Assembly: GCF_030815125.1 (NCBI RefSeq)
Contig: NZ_JAUSWH010000004.1
Location: 248,001-312,000 of the forward strand
Direction of reading: 5' to 3'
From: Allorhizobium paknamense
GTDB taxonomy: Bacteria > Pseudomonadota > Alphaproteobacteria > Rhizobiales > Rhizobiaceae
DNA: 64,000 nt
Shown piece by piece: positions 47,458 to 60,795 of this stretch (its first letter is position 1; each line of letters opens with the position of its first letter). The position numbers were made by a program, and so were the translations under genes. A model generated the notes under the pieces. The model saw only the letters and a program-made list of their open reading frames with translations, was not told where the DNA came from and searched no databases.

Positions 47458-48447
47458 ATGGTAAAGAAACTGGCTCTTCTGGGCGCAGGCCGCATTGGCA
47501 AAGTGCATGCCCGCGCCATTGCCGAGGACAAGCGCGCGCGCCTCGTGGCGGTGGCCGACGCCTTTGCGGAGGCCGCACAGGCGATTGCCGATGCGTCCGG
47601 TGCGGAGGTCAAGACCATCGAGCAAATCGAGGCGGACGCCTCCATTGACGGCGTATTGATCTGCACGCCCACCAACACCCATGCCGACCTGATCGAGCGC
47701 TTCGTGCGCGCCGGCAAGGCGGTCTTCTGCGAAAAGCCGATCGACCTCGACGTCAAGCGGGCGGAAGCCTGCGCCGAAGTGGTGCGTTCCGTTGGCGGCA
47801 AGGTCATGCTCGGCTTCAACCGCCGCTTCGATCCGCATTTCCGCGCCGTGCGCAGCGCCATCGACGAGGGCCGGATCGGCAAGGTGGAAATGGTCACGAT
47901 CACCAGCCGCGATCCCGGCGCACCGCCTGCCGAATACATCAAGGTCTCCGGCGGCATTTTCCGCGACATGACCATTCATGATTTCGATATCGCCCGCTTC
48001 ATGCTGGGAGAGGAAATCACCTCCGTCATGGCCTCCGCCTCGGTTCTGGTCGATCCGAAGATTGGCGAACTCGGCGATTTCGACAGCGCCAGCATTGTGC
48101 TGACCACCGCCTCGGGCCGCCAGGCGATTATTTCCAACTCGCGCCGCGCCACGTACGGCTACGATCAGCGGGTCGAAGTGCATGGTTCGCTGGGCTCGGT
48201 TGCTGCGGAAAACCAGCGGCCCGTCTCCATCGAAGTGGCCAACAAGGACGGCTATACCCGCCCGCCGCTGCATGATTTCTTCATGACGCGCTACACCGCA
48301 GCCTATGCGGCGGAAATCTCCAGCTTCCTCGACTATATGGAACAGGACGCCGCGCCCTCGCCCTCCATCGAGGACGGGCTGATTGCCCTGAAACTGGCGG
48401 ATGCAGCGCTGAAATCCGCCCGCGAAAAGGTCGTCGTAACCCTTTGA
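47458..48447 (+). CDS. idhA: Myo-inositol 2-dehydrogenase
   Basis: 329 residues from ATG 47458 (GGGAGGA upstream). Oxidises myo-inositol to 2-keto-myo-inositol with NAD+, the entry step of the pathway. Rossmann GAGRIGKVHARAI, catalytic lysine in FCEKPIDLD, and GGIFRDMTIHDFDIARFML with the catalytic D/H pair of inositol dehydrogenases. Divergent from iolR. An iolA-type methylmalonate-semialdehyde dehydrogenase and an inositol transporter are not in the window. Confidence 0.94.
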   Translation: MVKKLALLGAGRIGKVHARAIAEDKRARLVAVADAFAEAAQAIADASGAEVKTIEQIEADASIDGVLICTPTNTHADLIERFVRAGKAVFCEKPIDLDVKRAEACAEVVRSVGGKVMLGFNRRFDPHFRAVRSAIDEGRIGKVEMVTITSRDPGAPPAEYIKVSGGIFRDMTIHDFDIARFMLGEEITSVMASASVLVDPKIGELGDFDSASIVLTTASGRQAIISNSRRATYGYDQRVEVHGSLGSVAAENQRPVSIEVANKDGYTRPPLHDFFMTRYTAAYAAEISSFLDYMEQDAAPSPSIEDGLIALKLADAALKSAREKVVVTL

Positions 48448-51503: not shown

Positions 51504-53036
51504 CTATAACGCGTCCAGTCTCCCCAGCACATCGGCGGCGGCCTGTCTCAGGTCTTGCCGCTTGCCTTCGTCCATGCGGTTCCAGCTGGCATATATCGTG
51601 GTCATGCGCGGATTGCCCTTCAGCACCTTTTCGTTCCGGGCAATAAAATCCCAGTAGAGGGCGTTGAAGGGACAGGCCTTGTCGCCGGTGGATCGCTTGA
51701 CATCATAGGCGCAGGAGCCGCAGAAATTGCTCATGCGGTCAATATATTTGCCGCTGGCGGCATAGGGCTTGCTGGCCATCAACCCGCCATCGCCATAAAG
51801 CGCCATGCCCAGCGTGTTTGGCAATTCCACCCAGTCATAGGCATCGGCATAGACCAGCAAATACCAGTCGCAGACCTGTTTTGGCTCGATCCCCGCCAGC
51901 AAAGCGAAATTGCCGGTCACCATCAATCTCTGGATATGGTGGGAATAGGCATGCTCGATGGTATCGCCGATGGCCGCCGCCATGCAGGCCATTTTGGTCT
52001 TGCCGTCCCAGTAATAGCGCGGCAGCGGGCGCTTGGCGTTGAGGTGGTTGCGCTCGGCATAGCCCGGCATCTGGGTCCAGTAGAGCCCGCGCACATATTC
52101 GCGCCAACCGAGGATCTGGCGGATGAAGCCTTCCACGGCATTGAGCGGCGCCTTGCCATCACGATAGGCTTTTTCTGCCCGCCGGATGACCTGCAGCGGC
52201 AGAATCAGCCCGGCATTCAGATAGGACGAGATCAGCGAATGGTAGAGATAGGGTTCACCCGCCACCATCGCATCCTGATAGTCACCGAAATTCGGCAGCA
52301 CCTTTTCGACGAAATGCTCGTACTCCTTCCAGGCCTGCTCGGCGGTCACGGCAAAATGAAAAGGCCTGAGCGTGCCGAAATGGTCGCCGAAGCGCTCCTC
52401 CACCATGTCCAGCACCGCGTTGACGATGGCATCCTTGCGATGGCTCACACGCTTCGGGCCTTTGAGGCCCTTGGGCGGGGACTTGCGGTTGTCTTGGTCG
52501 AAATTCCACTGGCCGCCGGTCGGCGCGCCATCGGGCTCCATCAGCACCTCGTAGCGGCGGCGCTTGTCGCGGTAGAAGAATTCCATCCGCAATTGCTTGC
52601 GGCCCTTGGCCCATTCGCGAAACTCATCCGGGGTACAGAGAAAGCGATCATCGCCGCGGATTTCGACGGGCCGGTTCAGCTTGCGCTGCCAGCTGCGCAT
52701 CTCCTGCATCAGCCGGTATTCGCCGGGCTCGGTCACCACGATATTCCCGGGCTGAAGATCTGCAACCGCACGGCGCACCTCCCCGAACAGGCTCTGGCTG
52801 TTGTCCGGATCGTCCAGCGTTACATAGCGCACGCTAAAGCCGCGTTTGCGCAAATCTTCGGCGAAATGGCGCATGGCGGAAAAGAGAAAGGCGATCTTTT
52901 TCTTGTGATGCGGCACATAGGTCGCCTCGCCCATCACTTCCGCCATCAGCACGGTGGCGGTGGCCGGATCCACCGCCCGCAACGACGACAGCGACGCGCT
53001 CAACTGGTCGCCCAGAACGAGAATCAGCGATTTCAT
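51504..53036 (-). CDS. phrB: Iron-sulfur photolyase (FeS-BCP, PhrB-like)
   Basis: 510 residues. Cryptochrome/photolyase family protein related to DUF523/deoxyribodipyrimidine photolyase-related proteins; light-dependent repair of (6-4) photoproducts is known for Agrobacterium PhrB. N-terminal alpha/beta domain (LILVLGDQLSASLSSL), helical FAD-binding domain, and a [4Fe-4S] site: C351, C439, C442 and C455, each one residue offset from PhrB C350, C438, C441, C454. Co-transcribed behind a small exported protein (4-bp overlap), inside the ECF sigma-linked cluster. Confidence 0.93.
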   Translation of the reverse strand: MKSLILVLGDQLSASLSSLRAVDPATATVLMAEVMGEATYVPHHKKKIAFLFSAMRHFAEDLRKRGFSVRYVTLDDPDNSQSLFGEVRRAVADLQPGNIVVTEPGEYRLMQEMRSWQRKLNRPVEIRGDDRFLCTPDEFREWAKGRKQLRMEFFYRDKRRRYEVLMEPDGAPTGGQWNFDQDNRKSPPKGLKGPKRVSHRKDAIVNAVLDMVEERFGDHFGTLRPFHFAVTAEQAWKEYEHFVEKVLPNFGDYQDAMVAGEPYLYHSLISSYLNAGLILPLQVIRRAEKAYRDGKAPLNAVEGFIRQILGWREYVRGLYWTQMPGYAERNHLNAKRPLPRYYWDGKTKMACMAAAIGDTIEHAYSHHIQRLMVTGNFALLAGIEPKQVCDWYLLVYADAYDWVELPNTLGMALYGDGGLMASKPYAASGKYIDRMSNFCGSCAYDVKRSTGDKACPFNALYWDFIARNEKVLKGNPRMTTIYASWNRMDEGKRQDLRQAAADVLGRLDAL

Positions 53037-53428
53037 AGGGTCTGGCCGATGCGCGCCGTGCCCTTCTGGCCATTATCGCGGATCCAGCGCAGCTGGTTCT
53101 CGCCCGTCCGGTAAAGCTCGAAACACATGGGCGCGCCCTTATACCAGGTGTTAAAGCGCTGGCAGAGCCGGTCGCCGTCGATCCACCATTTGCCGGTGTC
53201 GTTCGGCTTGACGAAACGGCCAAGCCCAAGCGCCTGACCATCGCCATCCACCACGCCGTTGCGGCGATAGTTCAGCGGAAATTCACCCCCCATCGGCGTT
53301 GCGAGAAACACCCGCTTCCCGACGATACTGCGCTGGATGTCCCGCGCTGAATAGCGATCTTCCATGGCCGCGGCAGAACAAGCCGCAGCGATTACCAAGA
53401 CAAGACCTACCGTAAACCCTCTGATCAC
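53033..53428 (-). CDS. Small exported protein coupled to the photolyase gene
   Basis: 131 residues from GTG 53428, which follows AGGAGGG. Signal peptide (RGFTVGLVLVIAAACSAAA). Mature part: DIQRSIVGKRVFLATPMGGE, PLNYRRNGVVDGDG, then WWIDGDRLCQRFNTWYKGAP, suggesting a small beta-barrel (lipocalin- or DUF995-like outline, unconfirmed). Its end overlaps the photolyase start (ATGA). A sigma-type promoter shared by the cluster lies upstream (53476-53503). Function unknown. Confidence 0.75.
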   Translation of the reverse strand: MIRGFTVGLVLVIAAACSAAAMEDRYSARDIQRSIVGKRVFLATPMGGEFPLNYRRNGVVDGDGQALGLGRFVKPNDTGKWWIDGDRLCQRFNTWYKGAPMCFELYRTGENQLRWIRDNGQKGTARIGQTL

Positions 53429-53439
53429 AGTCACCCTCC

Positions 53440-53468
53440 TGATCCAACCTGTGGCCATTAAACGTATT
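53440..53468 (+). promoter_or_regulatory. Candidate ECF promoter of the SDR-DUF3833-SDR operon
   Basis: TGATCC (53440-53445), 17 bp, CGTATT (53463-53468), 62 bp before the SDR start. Shares its pattern with the candidates at 53476, 59337 and 59391. Confidence 0.5.
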
Positions 53469-53475
53469 GCTTATG

Positions 53476-53503
53476 AATACGCTGCCATGCAGCGTTCGGA
53501 TTG
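53476..53503 (-). promoter_or_regulatory. Candidate ECF promoter of the exported protein-photolyase operon
   Basis: On the minus strand CAATCC (53503-53498), 16 bp, CGTATT (53481-53476), 48 bp before the GTG start. The -35 element differs from TGATCC at two positions. Confidence 0.42.
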
Positions 53504-53530
53504 ATCGCGATCAGGAAGGGAGGGCTGAAG

Positions 53531-54247
53531 ATGAGCCAGTTTACGGGGTTGTCGGCGCTGCAGGAGGGCTATCAAGCGGTGGTTCTGGGGGCATCCGGCG
53601 GTATTGGCGGCGCCATTGCCGCCCATCTGGCAGCCGATCCCCGCTGCGGGAAACTGATCGCGCTGTCGCGAAGCGGGACCGGCCTCGACCTGACCCGGGA
53701 GGAAACGGTCGCCGCCGCCGCCGAAGCCGTCAAGGCGCAAGCGGGCGAGATCGATCTTCTCTTCTGCGCCACCGGCGCGCTCACCTTAGACGGCACCGGG
53801 CCGGAAAAGACCATCCGAGCCATCACGCCCGAGGCCATGGCGGCACAATTTGCGCTGAATGCGCTGGGACCGGCGCTGGTGCTCAAGCATTTCGCGCCGC
53901 TTTTTGCCCGCAACCGCCGGGTGATAGCGGGCTTTCTCTCCGCCAAGGTCGGCTCCATCGGCGATAACCGGCTGGGCGGCTGGATTTCCTACCGTGCTTC
54001 CAAGGCGGCCCTCAACCAGATCCTGCGCACCGCCGCCATTGAAATTGCCCGGACGCGGCCGGAAGCCGTGGTTGCCGCCCTGCATCCCGGCACCGTCGCC
54101 ACCAGCCTTTCCGCCGCCTATTCGGTCAACCACGAGCGGCTGGAGCCGACAGACAGCGCCGCCCGGCTTCTCTCCGTGCTCGATGGCATGACACCGGCGG
54201 AAACCGGCAGTTTCCATGGCTATGACGGCAAGGTGATCGAGTGGTAG
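53531..54247 (+). CDS. Short-chain dehydrogenase, CsgA/C-factor-like
   Basis: 238 residues. NAD(P) motif VVLGASGGIGGAIA, FCATGAL (NAG-type strand), catalytic Y and K in WISYRASKAALNQIL, and LHPGTVATSLSAAYS. Similar SDRs lie in ECF11/ChrR-linked clusters. First of three same-strand genes (62 bp to the next). Start ATG 53531 behind GGGAGGG. Confidence 0.88.
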   Translation: MSQFTGLSALQEGYQAVVLGASGGIGGAIAAHLAADPRCGKLIALSRSGTGLDLTREETVAAAAEAVKAQAGEIDLLFCATGALTLDGTGPEKTIRAITPEAMAAQFALNALGPALVLKHFAPLFARNRRVIAGFLSAKVGSIGDNRLGGWISYRASKAALNQILRTAAIEIARTRPEAVVAALHPGTVATSLSAAYSVNHERLEPTDSAARLLSVLDGMTPAETGSFHGYDGKVIEW

Positions 54248-54309
54248 CGAAATCCGCCGAGGCCGGGCCTGCGTATCGGGAGCAGAACTCATGTCAAAGG
54301 AGCCGAACC

Positions 54310-54861
54310 ATGCCGCGTTTGAAATATGCTCTGCTGGGCCTTGGGGCGGGGCTTGCAGCGTCCCTGTCGCCAGCGCTTGCCAGGGATTTTACCTTCGAAG
54401 ACTACTTCACCGGCAAAACCGTGGCGGAAGGGCGCTTTTCGGCCATTAACGGGGTCAAGCGCAGCTTCACCGTCGATCTGACCGGAAAATGGGATGGCCG
54501 CCTGCTGATCCTGAGGGAGGATTTCCGCTTCGATGACGGCAGCCGCGACACCAAGACCTGGCGCTTCGTCAAGACCGGCCCGAAGACCTATGTCGGCACC
54601 CGCGAGGATGTGGTGGGCCAGGCGCCTGTGACGCTCACTGGCGATACGGCGCGTTTCAGCTACCTTGTTTATCTTTCACCGGAAACCCAAGGCAACAAGG
54701 TGCGTTTTCATGACAAGATGGTGCTGCGCCCGGATGGGAGCGTGTTGAACACCGCCCTTGTCACCAAGTTCGGTCTGCCGGTGGCCTGGACGCGGGTGGA
54801 ATTCCGCAAACCCGAAGCTATCACGCACAAGCACAGGCCCCTTCACAAAGCCGCAAAGTGA
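54310..54861 (+). CDS. DUF3833-type exported protein
   Basis: 183 residues. Signal peptide (RLKYALLGLGAGLAASLSPA), then FTFEDYFTGKTVAEGRFSAI, KRSFTVDLTGKWDG, FRFDDGSRDTKTWRFVKTG and NKVRFHDKMVLRPDGSVLN, the usual outline of DUF3833 lipocalin-like proteins. Here the N-terminus lacks an obvious lipobox. DUF3833 genes commonly accompany SDR and cyclopropane-synthase-like genes. Overlaps the next reading frame. Confidence 0.82.
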   Translation: MPRLKYALLGLGAGLAASLSPALARDFTFEDYFTGKTVAEGRFSAINGVKRSFTVDLTGKWDGRLLILREDFRFDDGSRDTKTWRFVKTGPKTYVGTREDVVGQAPVTLTGDTARFSYLVYLSPETQGNKVRFHDKMVLRPDGSVLNTALVTKFGLPVAWTRVEFRKPEAITHKHRPLHKAAK

Positions 54862-54869
54862 GAACCGTC

Positions 54870-55643
54870 ATGATGATGTCTTCCGTCTCCCGCTCGAAAA
54901 TCGCCTGGATCACCGGCGCAAGCTCCGGCATTGGCCGCGCACTGGCGCTGAAGCTTGTCGGTGAGGGTTTTCGGGTGGCGGCCAGCGCCCGCAATGCGGA
55001 CGCACTGGCAGCACTTGCCTCGGAGGCGGGGGACAGCATCCTTGCCTATCCGCTGGACATCACCGACCGTGACGCGGTGAAGGCCACGGCCGCCCGCATC
55101 GAGGCAGATCTCGGCCCTATCCAATGGGCGGTGTTTTCGGCAGGCAATTACCTGCGCGAACGCCCAACCGCCTTCGATTCCGAAAAATTGCGGCAGATGG
55201 TGGAGTTGAATATCGTCGGCACCGGGCATTGTCTGGAAGCCGTCATTCCCTCGATGGTGGCACGCGGAGAAGGCCGGATCGGCCTGATCGCCTCGGTTTC
55301 CGGTTATACCGGCCTGCCCGGCGGCGGCATTTATGGCGGCAGCAAATCCATGCTGATCACGCTTGCCGAGGCCATGCATCCGGAACTGGCGGAAAAGGGC
55401 GTGACGCTCTCCATCATCAATCCCGGCTTCGTAAAGACACCGCTCACCGACAAGAATGATTTTCCGATGCCCTTCCTGATCACGGCGGAAGAGGCCGCAG
55501 ATCACATCGTCCATGGCATGAGCAAGCGCCGTTTCGAGATCGCCTTCCCCTGGCAGATGGTGCTGATCCTGAAACTGCTGCGGCGGCTGCCCTACGGGCT
55601 TTATTTCGCCATCACGCGAAAAATGTTGCGCAAGGACCGGTAA
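54870..55643 (+). CDS. Short-chain dehydrogenase
   Basis: 257 residues from ATG 54870. NAD(P) motif AWITGASSGIGRALALKL, FSAGNYLRERP, VSGYTGLPGGGIYGGSKSML with the catalytic Y and K, and NPGFVKTPLTDKN. The C-terminus has a hydrophobic, basic stretch (MVLILKLLRRLPYGLYFAIT) that may associate with membrane. A GTG at 54858 overlapping the DUF3833 stop is an alternative start. Third gene of the operon. Confidence 0.88.
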   Translation: MMMSSVSRSKIAWITGASSGIGRALALKLVGEGFRVAASARNADALAALASEAGDSILAYPLDITDRDAVKATAARIEADLGPIQWAVFSAGNYLRERPTAFDSEKLRQMVELNIVGTGHCLEAVIPSMVARGEGRIGLIASVSGYTGLPGGGIYGGSKSMLITLAEAMHPELAEKGVTLSIINPGFVKTPLTDKNDFPMPFLITAEEAADHIVHGMSKRRFEIAFPWQMVLILKLLRRLPYGLYFAITRKMLRKDR

Positions 55644-55659
55644 GAGAGAGCCTTTACGT

Positions 55660-55763
55660 GTTTCCTGACGGAAAACCGGTTCCCACTTTTCCTGGAAACC
55701 TGTAGTTCTTTGTTTTTCGTGTTTCCGGACGGAAAACCGGTTCCCACTTTTCCTGGAAACACT
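55660..55763. repeat. Two tandem RIME-like units
   Basis: TGTTTCCTGACGGAAAACCG and TGTTTCCGGACGGAAAACCG, each followed by CACTTTTCCTGGAAAC, about 58 bp apart. Both arms have changed in parallel (GTTTCC / GGAAAC rather than GCATTTCC / GGAAATGC), keeping the pairing. Confidence 0.85.
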
Positions 55764-55765
55764 TT

Positions 55766-55794
55766 AAAGCCCCCATCTTCCGGATGAGGGCTTT
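55766..55794. terminator. Bidirectional terminator between convergent SDR and CFA-like genes
   Basis: AAAGCCC / GGGCTTT with an inner CATC / GATG stem and TTCC loop; T-runs flank both sides. Confidence 0.8.
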
Positions 55795-55797
55795 ACG

Positions 55798-57012
55798 TCA
55801 TCGCGCCAGTTCGAACTGCACGACATCCAGCCTGCCGGTCCTGAAGCCCGCCGCGCAATAATGCAGGTAGTAGCGCCACATGCGGAAGAAGCGCTCATCG
55901 AAGCCCAGCGGTGCAATCTGCGGCCAGTGGGCGGTGAAGCTGCGGTCCCAGGTCAACAGGGTGCGCTCGTAATCACGCCCGAAGCGGAAGGCATCGAGAA
56001 CCTTCAGCCGCGAAGCACTGGCGGTACTTTCGAAGGTTTCGACGCTCGGCAACATGCCGCCGGGGAAGATGTAGGTCTGGATGAAATCGGCGCCACGGCG
56101 ATATTGCTCGAACCGGCTTTCATCGATGGTGATCACCTGCACGATGGCGCGCCCGCCTTCCACCAAGAGAGCCCGCACACGATCGAAATAAAGCGGCCAA
56201 TGCTCCTCGCCCACCGCCTCGAACATTTCGATGGACACGATCCGGGTGAAGCTGCCTTTCACATCGCGGTAATCCTCAAGGCGAATATCGGCGTTTGCAC
56301 CAAGCCCGGCTTTGGCCAGCCGGTCGCGGGCATAGGCCGCCTGTTCGCGTGACAGCGTCAGACCGGTCACGCGGCAGCCGGTGCGGCGAATGGCATATTC
56401 GGCAAAACCGCCCCAACCACAGCCAATTTCCAGCACGTGATCGTGCGGGCCGATCTGCAATTGCTCGACGATTCGGGCATATTTCGCCTCCTGCGCCTCG
56501 GCCAGGGGCTGGTTGGGATGCGCATAAAGCGCGGAGGAATAGGTCATGGTTTCATCCAGCCACAGCCGGTAGAAATCATTGCCGAGATCGTAGTGGAAGG
56601 CGATGTTGCGACGGCTTCCCGCTCTCGAATTGGCCCGCAGACGGTGCTTCAGCCAGGCGACGCGGCGAAACAGGCTGGAAGGCGACATGACCTTTTCCCA
56701 GCCCTGCTGGTTGGCAATGGCCAGTTCCAGAAAGGTGGCGATATCCGGGCTGTCCCAGTCACCCTCCAGATAGGCACGGGAAAAGCCGAGCCCGCCGCCG
56801 GTCAACAGCCGCCAGACGGTGCGGGCCCTGTTGATCTTCAAAACGGCAGAAGGGCCAGCCTCGCGGCCCTCGACATGCATTTCACGGCCATCGGGAAAGA
56901 TCACCGTCAGCCGTCCATGGCTGAGGCGCGCCGCCCACCGGCCAAGCACCCGCTGCCAGAACGGCGCTTTGGTAAGGCTTATGGTCGATGCCTGCTGGTC
57001 TGCATGGGTCAT
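55798..57012 (-). CDS. Cyclopropane-fatty-acid synthase-like SAM methyltransferase
   Basis: 404 residues from ATG 57012. N-terminal lipid-binding part (LTVIFPDGREMHVEGREAG), then IAFHYDLGNDFYRLWLDETM, TYSSALY, and SAM motif VLEIGCGWGGFAEYAI, with EMFEAVGEEHW in the active-site region. It alkylates double bonds in phospholipid acyl chains; in Rhodobacter a relative (UfaM) makes methylated unsaturated chains en route to furan fatty acids. Last gene of the FAD oxidase-DUF1365-CFA-like operon, 73 bp after DUF1365. Confidence 0.9.
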   Translation of the reverse strand: MTHADQQASTISLTKAPFWQRVLGRWAARLSHGRLTVIFPDGREMHVEGREAGPSAVLKINRARTVWRLLTGGGLGFSRAYLEGDWDSPDIATFLELAIANQQGWEKVMSPSSLFRRVAWLKHRLRANSRAGSRRNIAFHYDLGNDFYRLWLDETMTYSSALYAHPNQPLAEAQEAKYARIVEQLQIGPHDHVLEIGCGWGGFAEYAIRRTGCRVTGLTLSREQAAYARDRLAKAGLGANADIRLEDYRDVKGSFTRIVSIEMFEAVGEEHWPLYFDRVRALLVEGGRAIVQVITIDESRFEQYRRGADFIQTYIFPGGMLPSVETFESTASASRLKVLDAFRFGRDYERTLLTWDRSFTAHWPQIAPLGFDERFFRMWRYYLHYCAAGFRTGRLDVVQFELAR

Positions 57013-57014
57013 GA

Positions 57015-57088
57015 CAGGGTCCTCAACGTTGCAGCATATCCAGGAAACTCTTCGGTTTTCCGTTCGGAATGCGTAAAAACAAAAGTTA
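57015..57088. repeat. Diverged RIME-like unit between DUF1365 and CFA-like genes
   Basis: GCATATCCAGGAAACTCTTC then GGTTTTCCGTTCGGAATGCG and an A-rich tail. On the minus strand the DUF1365 stop TAA lies at its edge. Confidence 0.7.
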
Positions 57089-57892
57089 AAGCGCGTCCGC
57101 CCGACGTGTGCCGGGTTCCGGCGCAATCACGGAGCTGGCAACGGCAGACGCAGCCTTGCGATGGCGGTGGATCGGCACGCCTTTCAGCCATAGCCGCAAC
57201 GCTTCCCAATGAATGGCGCCCATCACCTTGAGCGTCATCAACGGGTAGGAAAACAGCGCCCGCAGCAGGGAGCCATCTGTCAGGCCTTCGCGCCGCCCCT
57301 GGAAGGAGGCAAAGAGCAGCGGGCCTTCCGGATCGCTTTCATGAATGGCAATCATCACGCCGTCAGCAGGCGGCTGGATGCGGAAACGATACAAGCAGTC
57401 CATCGGCACGAAGGGCGACACATACATTTCCTTGGCGCAGGCATGGCGGATGGCGCCATCCGCGTCAGGCGCAACCGGAATGATATAGGTGTGGCGCTCG
57501 TGGAACGTGTTGCAGACCTCGTAGAGGATCGCGGTCAGCACCCCATCCCCATCCCGGCAGAAATAAACGGTCAGCGGATTGAAGACATAACCGAAGATGC
57601 GCGGATAACAGAGCATCGTCACCTGAGCGCCGCCTCGTTCCAGCCCGGCCTCAGCCAGCCGCTCCGCGACCCAAGCCCGTAATCCCCCCTTTTTGCCATG
57701 GCCGTGATCTGAATCATGCACGCTGAACACGGCGCGGCGATTGTGGCCGAACAGCTTCAGCCCGCGATCGAGCAGGGGCAGTTCATCGAGATCGATGAGC
57801 AGGGAAAAGACGCGGTAACGCAGCGCGTGCCGCTTCGGCTTGAAGCGCTGATGCACGACCTCTCCGCGGTAGAGTGCGCTTGCTCCGCTCAT
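57086..57892 (-). CDS. DUF1365 family protein
   Basis: 268 residues. Conserved DUF1365 pieces: LYRGEVVHQRFKPKRHALRY, then VFSLLIDLDELP, MLCYPRIFGYVFNPLTVYFC and CNTFHERHTYI, and KEMYVSPFVPMDCLYRF. Biochemical role unproven; it nearly always stands between a FAD-dependent amine-oxidase-like protein and a CFA-synthase-like protein, as here. Overlaps the FAD gene by 4 bp. Confidence 0.9.
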   Translation of the reverse strand: MSGASALYRGEVVHQRFKPKRHALRYRVFSLLIDLDELPLLDRGLKLFGHNRRAVFSVHDSDHGHGKKGGLRAWVAERLAEAGLERGGAQVTMLCYPRIFGYVFNPLTVYFCRDGDGVLTAILYEVCNTFHERHTYIIPVAPDADGAIRHACAKEMYVSPFVPMDCLYRFRIQPPADGVMIAIHESDPEGPLLFASFQGRREGLTDGSLLRALFSYPLMTLKVMGAIHWEALRLWLKGVPIHRHRKAASAVASSVIAPEPGTRRADAL

Positions 57893-59247
57893 TGCGCCGC
57901 CATCAGCTGCGTATCGACGAAAATTCTGCCGGAGGGCTCATCCACCGTCCAGGGACGGGCGACACCCCCCAATTGCTCGGCCACGGCAAGACCCGCCTGC
58001 AAGCCATCCTCATGGAAGCCACTGCCGAAATGCGCACCGCAGAACCAGGTCCGGCGGCGACCCTGCAACTGCCAGATCCGGCGCTGGGCGGCGATGGCCT
58101 TGGCGTCAAACAGCGGATGACTGTAATCAAAGCTGGCGTGAATGGTCTTCGGGTCTATGTCCCGGCTGGGATTGAGGGTTACGAACAGCGGCACGGCCGG
58201 ATCGAGGCTTTGCAGGCGGTTCATCCAATAGGTGACGCAGAGTGCCGCATCCGCCGTCTCATTGCGGTTGCCGATATAATTCCAGCTGGACCACACAGCC
58301 CGGCGTTTCGGCATCAGGGCCGGGTCGGAATGCAGAACGGCGGTGTTGGCCGTGTAGCCGAAAGCCCCCAGAAGCGCGCGTTCCTGCCCGTCAGCATCCT
58401 CGAGAAGCGCCAGCGCCTGATCGGCATGGGTAGCAATCACCACGTCATCGAAGCGGTCGCGCTGGCCATCGGCGGTCACCACATCGACACCGCCTTCATG
58501 ACGCTCGACACGCACCACCTTTCTGCCAAGCCGCACCTCGCCGGCAAAGGCCGAAAGCAGCCTGCCGACATATTCCCGGCTGCCGCCGGAGACAGTGCGC
58601 CATTGCGGCCGGTTCTTCAGCTCCACCAGACCGTGGTTGATGAAAAAACGCAGGAAAGCATGCAGCGGATAGGCCCGCATATCGGCAGCGGTCGTAGACC
58701 AGATCGCCGCCCCCATCGGCAGCAGATGATCTTCGATAAAGGCCTCGCTATACTGCTCAAGCGCCAGATAATCGCCGAGCGTCGCGGCAATCAGATCCGA
58801 GCGCTCCAGAAGCGCATCGGCGGATTTGTAGAAACGCATGATATCCGACACCATGCGCCAGAAACGCGGGCTGAACGCGTTTCGGCGCTGGCCGAGCAGG
58901 CCGCCAAGGCCGGAGCCGGAATATTCAAAGCCACCGGAGCGCAGCGAGACGGCAAAGGACATGTTTGAGTCGAGCGTCGGCACCTTCAGCTGCTCGAACA
59001 GCGCCACGAGATTGGGGTAGTTGCGCTCATTATAAACAATGAAGCCGGTATCCACCGGCACCGTTTTGCCTGCGGCGGCAACCTCGACCGTGTTGGAATG
59101 GCCGCCTGCCCTGGTCTCTGATTCGTAGAGCACGACCGGGCGGCTGCGCGACAAAAGCCATGCGGCGGAAAGCCCTGAAATGCCGGAGCCGATGACCGCC
59201 ACGCGCTGGCCGCCACGGGGCGGAAACCTGTCTTCCTTGAGTGCCAT
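57889..59247 (-). CDS. FAD-dependent amine oxidase/desaturase-like protein
   Basis: 452 residues. Dinucleotide-binding VAVIGSGISGLSAAWLLSRS at the N-terminus, second FAD motif YESETRAGGHSNTVEV, substrate domain, and C-terminal FAD loop FCGAHFGSGFHEDGLQAGL. Family members include phytoene-desaturase-like enzymes; in the furan fatty acid pathway a desaturase (UfaD) acts on methylated acyl chains, and this protein is a plausible but unproven equivalent. First gene of the three-gene operon, divergent from the ECF sigma gene. Confidence 0.88.
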   Translation of the reverse strand: MALKEDRFPPRGGQRVAVIGSGISGLSAAWLLSRSRPVVLYESETRAGGHSNTVEVAAAGKTVPVDTGFIVYNERNYPNLVALFEQLKVPTLDSNMSFAVSLRSGGFEYSGSGLGGLLGQRRNAFSPRFWRMVSDIMRFYKSADALLERSDLIAATLGDYLALEQYSEAFIEDHLLPMGAAIWSTTAADMRAYPLHAFLRFFINHGLVELKNRPQWRTVSGGSREYVGRLLSAFAGEVRLGRKVVRVERHEGGVDVVTADGQRDRFDDVVIATHADQALALLEDADGQERALLGAFGYTANTAVLHSDPALMPKRRAVWSSWNYIGNRNETADAALCVTYWMNRLQSLDPAVPLFVTLNPSRDIDPKTIHASFDYSHPLFDAKAIAAQRRIWQLQGRRRTWFCGAHFGSGFHEDGLQAGLAVAEQLGGVARPWTVDEPSGRIFVDTQLMAAQ

Positions 59248-59336
59248 GATCCCTCCCCTGAACGATCCTGGTGTTTCCCGACCGGCACTGCCGCTTCAGC
59301 AAACGAATCGCTGTTCCGTTGAAATTCTTGCCACTC

Positions 59337-59364
59337 TTTACGAGATGAAGAAGCTCGTGGATTA
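59337..59364 (-). promoter_or_regulatory. Candidate ECF promoter of the FAD oxidase-DUF1365-CFA operon
   Basis: On the minus strand TAATCC (59364-59359), 16 bp, CGTAAA (59342-59337), about 90 bp before the start codon. Confidence 0.5.
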
Positions 59365-59390
59365 GCGGATACGGAACTTTTTTGGGTCTG

Positions 59391-59418
59391 TGATCCAGTG
59401 GAAAGCAGGCTGCGTAAT
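59391..59418 (+). promoter_or_regulatory. Candidate autoregulatory promoter of the ECF sigma gene
   Basis: TGATCC (59391-59396), 16 bp, CGTAAT (59413-59418). TGATCC is the -35 element reported for Rhodobacter sphaeroides RpoE, the sigma factor paired with ChrR. Confidence 0.6.
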
Positions 59419-59548
59419 GGGGAACATGACAATAACCATTTCCCATACGGCCTTTGAATGCCACAATACCAGGAGCCCGGTCGCACGTCCGAGGGGACGG
59501 CGTGGGATTGCCGGTCAACAGGCGCCTTCGCGCGCCAACGGGATGGTT

Positions 59549-60118
59549 ATGGACGCAAAGACCGAGGACATGTCTCACCTTCTCGCGGCTGTGGCGCGGG
59601 ACAGGGACAAAGAGGCATTCGAGACACTGTTTCGCCATTATGCTCCGCGCGTGAAGGCCTACATGGCCCGGCAGGCGCGTGACAGCCAGGCGGCTGAGGA
59701 ACTGATGCAGGAAACCATGATGGCCGTCTGGAACAAGGCGGCACTTTTCGATCCGGAGCGGGGCAATGTCTCGGCCTGGATTTTCACCATTGCCCGTAAT
59801 CTCAGGGTTTCGGCCTACCGCAAGGATCGCAGACCGGAATTCGATCCGCAGGATCCCGCCTTCGTGCCGGATGACGTGCCCTCCGCCGACGAGGAATACC
59901 AGAGCCGGCAGGAGGCGGAGCGCCTGCGCATCGCCATGCAGGATCTGCCCAGCGAGCAGCGCGAACTGCTCCAGCTTTCCTTCTTTAACGAAGTCTCTCA
60001 CAGTACCATAGCCAAGGATCTCAACCTGCCGCTGGGAACGGTCAAATCCCGCATCCGCATGGCCTTTGCGAAGTTGCGTGCCGCCCTCGACGACAGGTTG
60101 ATGGAGGACCATCGATGA
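59549..60118 (+). CDS. rpoE: ECF sigma factor of the RpoE-ChrR (ECF11) type
   Basis: 189 residues from ATG 59549 (59543 is an alternative). Region 2 about 20-90 (FETLFRHYAPRVKAYMARQA, ETMMAVWNKAALFDPERGNV, SAWIFTIARNLRVSAYRKDR) and region 4 about 130-185 (LPSEQRELLQLSFFNEVSHS, GTVKSRIRMAFAKLRAAL). The next gene, chrR, overlaps its stop by 4 bp. Under singlet oxygen ChrR releases this type of sigma factor. A matching promoter lies upstream, so autoregulation is likely. Confidence 0.92.
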   Translation: MDAKTEDMSHLLAAVARDRDKEAFETLFRHYAPRVKAYMARQARDSQAAEELMQETMMAVWNKAALFDPERGNVSAWIFTIARNLRVSAYRKDRRPEFDPQDPAFVPDDVPSADEEYQSRQEAERLRIAMQDLPSEQRELLQLSFFNEVSHSTIAKDLNLPLGTVKSRIRMAFAKLRAALDDRLMEDHR

Positions 60119-60795
60119 GCGTGCGCCACCATGTCAGTGATGAATTGCTGCTGGATTATGCCAGCGGAAGTCTCAGCGAGGGCTGGGGACTGGCGGTTGC
60201 GACCCATCTGGCGCTGTGCCCGGAATGCCGGGTGCGGCTGGGACGTATCGAAGCGGCTGCCGGTGCCTTGATGGATGCGGATGACGTGACGGACGCGCAG
60301 GCTGCATCGGTGGACGCCTCCTGGGCCGCCATGCAGGCCCGAATGGCGGAGGCTGACGCACCCGCAACGGCAAAAACGCGGTCATCGACGCAGACGATGG
60401 GCAGGCCGGCTGCGATCCTGCCCGAACCTCTGCGCTCCTATGTCGGTGGTGATGTCGGGGAGTTGAAATGGAAGGCGCTTGGACGCGGGGCCTATCACAT
60501 TCCCATCCGCACCAATGACGGTGAGACGAGCGTGCGGCTGCTGAGGATTCCCGCCGGCAAACCGGTGCCCGAACACACCCATGGCGGGCGGGAGCTGACG
60601 CTGGTTCTCGCTGGCAGTTTCCACGATGAAACCGGTCGCTTTGGCCGCGGCGATCTGGAGGACGCCGATTCCTCGCTGGAACACCAGCCGATCGCCGATG
60701 AAGGTGAAGACTGCATCTGTCTTGCCGTGACGGACGCGCCTTTGAAATTCAAAAGCCGTCTTTTGCGGATTATCCAGCCGGTTCTGGGGATCTGA
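60115..60795 (+). CDS. chrR: Zinc anti-sigma factor ChrR
   Basis: 226 residues. N-terminal zinc anti-sigma domain with H6, H31, C35 and C38, exactly the numbering of R. sphaeroides ChrR, and a C-terminal cupin domain with H154, H156, E160 and H190, which keep the spacing of the Rhodobacter ligands (H141, H143, E147, H177) with a 13-residue offset. All metal ligands for sigma binding and for singlet-oxygen sensing are therefore present. Translationally coupled to the sigma gene (ATGA). Confidence 0.95.
   Translation: MSVRHHVSDELLLDYASGSLSEGWGLAVATHLALCPECRVRLGRIEAAAGALMDADDVTDAQAASVDASWAAMQARMAEADAPATAKTRSSTQTMGRPAAILPEPLRSYVGGDVGELKWKALGRGAYHIPIRTNDGETSVRLLRIPAGKPVPEHTHGGRELTLVLAGSFHDETGRFGRGDLEDADSSLEHQPIADEGEDCICLAVTDAPLKFKSRLLRIIQPVLGI

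Follow-up and report, generated by a model that had tools for sequence, protein, structure and literature searches.

In a 64,000-nucleotide stretch of the Allorhizobium paknamense genome (contig NZ_JAUSWH010000004.1, positions 248,001 to 312,000; hereafter the window), a gene cluster encoding a sigma factor, RpoE, and its anti-sigma factor, ChrR, carries five sites of the form ATCC-N16/17-CGTA. Judging from sequence comparison, these sites are very probably promoters read by the sigma factor of the same cluster, a predicted extracytoplasmic function (ECF) sigma factor of the singlet-oxygen/peroxide type (ECF11, RpoE–ChrR); binding of the sigma factor to the sites and their induction by stress are what we infer from this reading. 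An earlier note on this DNA had reported four of the sites, and sequence reading and pattern searches find all four where it placed them. Its list was incomplete, however, since a pattern search adds a fifth, weaker site between the genes of a short-chain dehydrogenase (SDR1) and of a DUF3833 protein. The five sites are as follows:

59391–59418, plus strand: TGATCC-N16-CGTAAT, predicted sigma-E (ECF11) promoter of rpoE-chrR, with a predicted transcription start at 59426
59337–59364, minus strand: TAATCC-N16-CGTAAA, predicted sigma-E promoter of the operon for a flavin adenine dinucleotide (FAD)-dependent oxidase, a DUF1365 protein and a cyclopropane-fatty-acid-synthase-like (CFA) methyltransferase; −35 positions 1–2 off consensus
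53440–53468, plus strand: TGATCC-N17-CGTATT, predicted sigma-E promoter of the SDR1–DUF3833–SDR2 operon
53476–53503, minus strand: CAATCC-N16-CGTATT, predicted sigma-E promoter of the operon for an exported protein and a photolyase-related protein; faces the SDR1 promoter
54250–54277, plus strand: AAATCC-N16-CGTATC, weaker internal site of the predicted sigma-E type, preceding the DUF3833 gene; counterparts in four relatives

The promoters of rpoE and of the FAD oxidase gene stand back to back, the first bases of their −35 boxes being 27 bp apart in the window. Among the 20 loci of the set L049–L070 in which both strict sites were found, this distance is 24–32 bp in 19 and 39 bp in one.

Conservation of the sites upstream of orthologous genes

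Relatives were taken as the best 80 of at least 588 confirmed candidates from one scan of named genomes. Each site was scored by the number of letters matched to TGATCC-N16/17-CGTA (maximum 10), retaining the best match within 300 nt upstream of the extrapolated gene start, while six wrong spacing pairs applied to the identical sequences, and for rpoE also 1600 shuffles, served as controls. Upstream of rpoE, the site is perfect in 60 of the 80 relatives and matches 9 of the 10 letters in 8 more, against 0/480 perfect matches (4.6% at 9 letters) for the wrong spacings and 0.1% for the shuffles. When the columns at a fixed distance from rpoE are taken in the 22 loci L049–L070 without regard to motif or score, conservation of at least 75% is reached solely at TGATCC, at CGTA, at one upstream T and at a downstream ATGA, and the spacer does not stand out; the −35 box itself reads TGATCC in 20 of these loci and TGATCT in two.

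For the FAD oxidase gene, the scores over 62 loci are 10 in 20, 9 in 20, 8 in 17 and 7 in 5, with wrong spacings giving 0/372 perfect matches, 5% at 9 letters and 27% at 8. Perfect sites occur in 20 of the 40 loci with an FAD oxidase match outside L049–L070, and the −35 box inside that set is never TGATCC (0/22; CAATCC 10, CGATCC 6, AAATCC 3, GCATCC 2, TAATCC 1). Our guess is that this off-consensus −35 box marks a weaker promoter, kept for a reason. The enrichment upstream of orthologues that the earlier note had named as support for its proposal is thus apparent at both positions.

The other sites were evaluated in fewer loci. Before the exported-protein gene, one of six loci has a perfect site and three have 9 letters, L068 and L075 being without a good one. 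The SDR1 gene gave nine tblastn hits, and the site is perfect in the three loci where the same gene is in place (L049–L051); the remaining hits either coincide with SDR2 (L066, L067, L070) or lie elsewhere, at 39–57% identity (L084, L087, L123). Since the DUF3833, SDR2 and CFA genes each lead their own unit in some relatives, they were scored as well, yielding two perfect sites and eight at 9 letters for DUF3833 (19 loci), one and 11 for SDR2 (42 loci), and none and five for CFA (49 loci). At the internal site of the window, an A/C-AATCC-N16-CGTA counterpart is present in the four relatives in which this gene order was seen (L049, L050, L051, L158).

A further 54 loci, 29 drawn from a collection of 30 and 25 from another, with the window and sister copies left out, formed a second set, which was searched for TGATC(C/T)- or AGATC(C/T)-N16-CGTA. 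The site lies upstream of 23 of the 31 sigma genes with a chrR tblastn match in the same locus, three of the 23 repeating first-set loci, and upstream of none of the 23 without such a match, bearing in mind that a very divergent chrR could escape tblastn. The earlier note's attribution of the sites to a sigma factor resembling Rhodobacter RpoE is therefore supported both by conservation at orthologues and by this link to chrR-associated sigma genes.

Sites elsewhere in the genome and the predicted regulon

The A. paknamense genome contains 19 exact TGATCC-N16/17-CGTA sites, 16 of them at N16 and three at N17. When the spacing is varied from N4 to N33, 147 matches are found; 128 of them fall at the remaining 28 spacings (4.6 each), so that N16 is in surplus (16 vs. 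4.6; Poisson 2e-5); among the 100 matches listed of the 147, N16 accounts for 12 and the next spacing for six. This surplus supports the motif in A. paknamense, but it is slight across the family, and genome-wide pattern counting was not used by itself as a regulon finder. Mechanically called open reading frames (ORFs) of at least 100 residues overlap 16 of the 18 exact sites examined among the 19, true promoters included. Where position is not conserved, the motif by itself predicts promoters poorly.

In the sister genome (G254), five of the six exact N16 sites precede orthologues that also bear exact sites in A. paknamense, namely rpoE, phrA (DNA photolyase), hemH (ferrochelatase), folE (GTP cyclohydrolase I) and the gene of a PAS-domain chemoreceptor. 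Between the two genomes, the spacers have largely changed at rpoE, phrA and folE. The sixth site (L157), some 230 nt before a gene that looks sdhC-like by eye, has no match among the A. paknamense loci compared.

phrA, hemH and folE were then considered in 30 genomes, including the two above, whose status was set by a search for ChrR, because nine of 18 genomes without a sigma match at E ≤ 1e-50 have ChrR above cut-off. Perfect upstream sites are found in 7/22 ChrR-positive and 0/2 ChrR-negative genomes for phrA (wrong spacings 1/144), in 5/25 and 0/5 for hemH (one ChrR-negative genome at 9 letters; wrong spacings 0/180) and in 3/25 and 0/5 for folE (wrong spacings 0/180). One folE match, in G207 (L207), was excluded as an upstream site, as it falls inside coding sequence and a similar coding stretch occurs in several relatives. 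All in all, the core regulon is solid, while the extended set looks lineage-specific.

The hemH site itself (L047:1499–1526, contig C22 of A. paknamense) is perfect and lies 34 nt before the gene, and it is also perfect in G254, G267, G166 and G247. Three further exact sites in A. paknamense can be mentioned: one (L039:1499–1526, contig C5) is overlapped by no ORF of 100 residues and is followed, after about 45 nt, by a 57-residue ORF that has no Pfam match, and two (L007:1499–1526 and L001:1501–1526) lie within ORFs in which the DUF1045 and cold-shock domains start only well after the site; these two may be promoters of the DUF1045 and cold-shock genes.

Several of these results weigh against taking the sites as RpoE promoters. 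In twelve of the 80 relatives, the rpoE site scores below 9 letters. In the window, −35 positions 1–2 differ from TGATCC at three of the five sites, and 17 of the 62 FAD oxidase sites score just 8, a value reached by wrong spacings in 27% of cases; those 8-letter sites therefore rest on their fixed position and their invariant ATCC and CGTA, not on score. Likewise, the hemH and PAS spacers differ between A. paknamense and G254 at 3 of 16 bases, about as much as the flanks, and because these spacers are nearly unchanged, conservation of the boxes says little by itself there. Perfect hemH and folE sites are present in few ChrR-positive genomes, and the surplus of N16 over N13 in ChrR-positive genomes is slight (195 vs. 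159 sites, 27 genomes, one-sided p 0.03; in nine ChrR-negative genomes, 39 vs. 48). A rival reading is that the sites merely resemble promoters and arose by chance between genes, and many of the matches elsewhere in the genome indeed lack a known counterpart in relatives. The window contains ATCC-N16/17-CGTA six times for 1.89 expected, five of the matches being within the cluster and each upstream of a gene, with the remaining one at 48414; this count is suggestive at best, because two of 100 shuffles reach six (maximum seven), and it is conservation that carries the case. Dozens of relatives retain the rpoE and FAD oxidase positions, and neither wrong spacings nor sigma genes lacking chrR show such a signal, which refutes chance for these two sites, while those of SDR1, the exported protein and DUF3833 rest on fewer relatives. 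For the sites taken together, we give chance virtually no credence.

It is also very improbable, if slightly less so, that the sites serve another sigma factor, such as the general stress sigma factor EcfG, or that several ECF sigma factors share them. The EcfG motif, GGAAC-N16/17-CGTT, has a similar layout, and the genome may hold more ECF sigma genes (16 first-look candidates, one above threshold). Yet a pattern search of the 64-kb window returns no match to the EcfG motif, and the site tracks chrR across the second set of loci.

Facing promoters and the predicted leaderless start of rpoE

The earlier note described the sites at 53440–53503 as a divergent pair. There are indeed two sites on opposed strands, but the promoters face each other, −10 to −10, instead of standing back to back. 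The window shares this arrangement, in which the −10 boxes are 2–8 bp apart, with five relatives, namely G254, two A. vitis strains, A. taibaishanense and Agrobacterium sp. a22-2. The SDR-side spacer is 17 bp in all six genomes; in Agrobacterium sp. a22-2, the pair precedes SDR2, and SDR1 was not found. Under the strict pattern, four of the 80 relatives have the pair and the other 76 do not, while four wrong spacing pairs give none. In the rpoE9 operon of S. meliloti, the mapped start follows a CGTC at a distance of 9 nt (PMC3616915). If transcription likewise begins 9 nt after the −10 tetramer, the starts would fall at 53476 (plus strand) and 53468 (minus strand), leaving hardly any room for two polymerases at the same time. 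For bidirectional promoters, a pseudo-symmetric element is described as engaging RNA polymerase in two orientations with mutually exclusive binding (PMC12825309); the pair in the window and in the five relatives consists of two complete facing promoters.

The rpoE promoter itself lies very close to an in-frame ATG: in the window, its CGTA ends 9 nt before the ATG at 59426. This was surveyed in 82 loci (the 80 relatives, the window and G254), of which 68 have the rpoE site. An ATG stands at offset 6–7 after the −10 hexamer in 47 of the 68, in frame and open in all 47. Extending the offsets to 5–9 gives 50/68 in-frame open ATGs, i.e., 24/24 in the window, G254 and L049–L070 and 26/44 elsewhere, while five-nt windows further downstream contain an in-frame ATG in 1–9 of the 68 loci. 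In the second set, the promoter-linked ATG is present in 20 of 23 loci (18 of 20 without repeats). Among 19 loci of equal length, all 19 have an open frame from this ATG, compared to 0 and 2 for the other forward frames. Furthermore, codons 2–7 of the extension are low in G + C (38%, vs. 61% for codons 8–37; 23 loci), and many Rhizobiaceae-like extensions have an A/E-C-H-N motif near residue 12.

The fixed distance between promoter and ATG leads us to predict a leaderless rpoE message and an N-terminally extended sigma factor, starting at 59426 in place of 59543 and having 230 residues. We lean towards a general form of this prediction, in which the ECF11 start codon of Rhizobiaceae and many other Alphaproteobacteria would coincide with the transcription start, giving a leaderless mRNA and a sigma factor extended by about 40 residues; the conventional start annotation would then be wrong, and messages from any other promoter could yield a shorter form. 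The loop may thus set both the amount and the form of the sigma factor and may favour translation by stressed ribosomes. The alternative, which we consider doubtful but far from negligible, is that rpoE is translated from an internal ATG (59543 or 59549), with nothing more than a conventional 5′ leader ahead of it. In its favour, the median Shine–Dalgarno energy of the best internal rpoE start (−6.1 kcal/mol) is close to that of the FAD oxidase start (−5.8; chrR −9.3), and the ATG after the −10 box is missing in 18 of the 68 loci. The extension also shows little excess variation at third codon positions, 0.58 vs. 0.50 and 0.55, compared to 0.50 vs. 0.24 and 0.20 for the core sigma factor, and in 12 close, non-independent pairs the ratio of nonsynonymous to synonymous substitutions (dN/dS) is 0.17–0.63 in ten and 0.87 and 1.2 in two, far above that of the core. 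Because dN/dS is high, constraint is weak beyond the first dozen extension codons. In 18 of the 19 loci, moreover, an antisense frame is open too. Against an internal start stand the recurrence of the promoter-linked ATG, in frame and open, in both sets, the low G + C content just after it, and, in the window, a best internal Shine–Dalgarno energy of −4.1 kcal/mol vs. −11.6 for the FAD oxidase and −9.3 for chrR. We retain the leaderless start as the more probable of the two.

Genes of the cluster and comparison with known systems

The cluster spans positions 51504–60795 and comprises the following genes:

59543–60118, plus strand: rpoE, encoding an ECF sigma factor that has just regions 2 and 4 (PF04542, PF04545), 191 residues from the conventional start, ATG 59543
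59426–59542, plus strand: predicted N-terminal extension of RpoE from the leaderless ATG 59426, 39 codons, in frame
60115–60795, plus strand: chrR, zinc/cupin anti-sigma factor (TIGR02451, 225.7 bits for a cut-off of 124.5)
57889–59247, minus strand: FAD-dependent amine-oxidase-like protein (candidate UfaD)
57086–57892, minus strand: DUF1365 protein (candidate UfaO)
55798–57012, minus strand: cyclopropane-fatty-acid-synthase-like methyltransferase (candidate UfaM)
53531–54247, plus strand: SDR1, short-chain dehydrogenase, by family match
54310–54861, plus strand: DUF3833 protein, by family match
54870–55643, plus strand: SDR2, short-chain dehydrogenase, by family match
53033–53434, minus strand: small protein with a signal-like N-terminus and no family match (the exported protein); ATG 53458 is an alternative start
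51504–53036, minus strand: photolyase-related protein (Pfam DPRP), by family match

Among solved structures, the sigma factor is nearest to RpoE of R. sphaeroides (2q1z/2z2s, E 4.7e-44; next best 4e-16) and the anti-sigma factor to ChrR of the same species (E 1.1e-54), in alignment with which the eight zinc ligands named in PMC6852236 are kept; ChrR scores 147 bits against the narrower NCBIfam model NF051881, below its cut-off of 300 bits. By domains, nearest structures, the adjacent ChrR and the promoter motif, the pair would be an ECF11 (RpoE–ChrR) system. Among the best 80 relatives of the scan, the named rpoE genes with the highest identity (79%) are those of Agrobacterium vitis and Allorhizobium taibaishanense.

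A few side observations concern the same genes. A second ChrR-like match, limited to the cupin part, exists in A. paknamense (G000:C5:273137–273367; 43 bits, below the family cut-off), and weak second matches are likewise present in other genomes searched for ChrR. A contig labelled Arenimonas (L057, from a metagenome-assembled genome) carries a Rhizobium-like rpoE cluster with an rpoE 72% identical, perhaps owing to a binning error. Finally, an intergenic repeat (TTTCC-GACGGAAAACCGGTTCCC...) at 55653–55760 and 57053–57083, present as two direct copies of 47 nt that are 96% alike, together with an inverted partner at 81%, is perhaps a rhizobial intergenic palindromic element, a name that is a guess.

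The motif and the kind of regulon are already known, and as a regulon the present one is ordinary. The gene lists of the primary comparative paper (Dufour 2008) may already include some of it. In R. sphaeroides, the motif is TGATCC(N15)GCGTA (PMC5036791), in line with the earlier note, which gave TGATCC as the reported −35 element of Rhodobacter RpoE, and both folE2 and phrA are RpoE targets (PMC7074977). Two differences are that the CFA-type methyltransferase is here inside the FAD oxidase–DUF1365 operon and that the GTP cyclohydrolase belongs to Pfam GTP_cyclohydroI; the excerpts of R. sphaeroides literature searched make no mention of facing promoters or of the leaderless rpoE predicted here. 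PSPTO_1043/1042 of P. syringae has the same consensus, TGATCC-n16-CGTA from chromatin immunoprecipitation, with a peak before the sigma gene itself and a phrB/CFA locus, but this is a Gammaproteobacterium with another gene layout and other targets, such as katG (PMC5507510). For RpoE2–ChrR of Shewanella oneidensis, TGATCC is combined with CGTATT or CGTAAT, two starts are mapped, and the predicted targets include cfa, photolyases, an SDR gene and hemH2, which encodes a ferrochelatase (PMC4336711); however, hemH2 is a paralogue beside a glutathione peroxidase gene, while a single ferrochelatase gene was found here. The FAD oxidase–DUF1365–CFA operon fits ufaD-ufaO-ufaM of R. palustris (RPA2571–2569; PMC7380195), the furan fatty acid (ufa) genes, in order and family types, and the likeness, like the candidate names given above, is one of gene order and family type. 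As in these systems, rpoE-chrR, photolyase, CFA-type and ufa genes are each predicted to lie under a TGATCC-N16-CGTA-type promoter.

By analogy with characterised relatives, ChrR would hold RpoE in the absence of stress, and photo-oxidative stress would lead to the loss of ChrR and free RpoE. RNA polymerase carrying RpoE would then transcribe rpoE-chrR itself, along with the neighbouring operons, which encode candidate membrane-lipid-modifying enzymes, the short-chain dehydrogenases and the photolyase-related protein; phrA, hemH, folE and the PAS chemoreceptor gene are probable further targets elsewhere in the genome. Ferrochelatase uses up the photosensitiser protoporphyrin, and the hemH site would link the response to its removal.

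Two features merit the attention of specialists, namely the facing promoters and the predicted leaderless start. In the excerpts of open-licence literature searched, we found no report of facing SDR/exported-protein promoters, no recognisable one of leaderless RpoE/ChrR or ECF sigma messages, and none of these points for Agrobacterium or Allorhizobium/A. vitis with ChrR or ECF11. Altogether, the results would extend the singlet-oxygen response to plant-associated bacteria that are not photosynthetic, with a short, testable regulon in which ferrochelatase and GTP cyclohydrolase stand alongside photolyase and genes for lipid modification. Should the leaderless start prove correct, the autoregulatory loop would gain a translational arm, of which we found no report in the same excerpts, and many genomes would be annotated with a wrong N-terminus for a sigma family that has been studied intensively.

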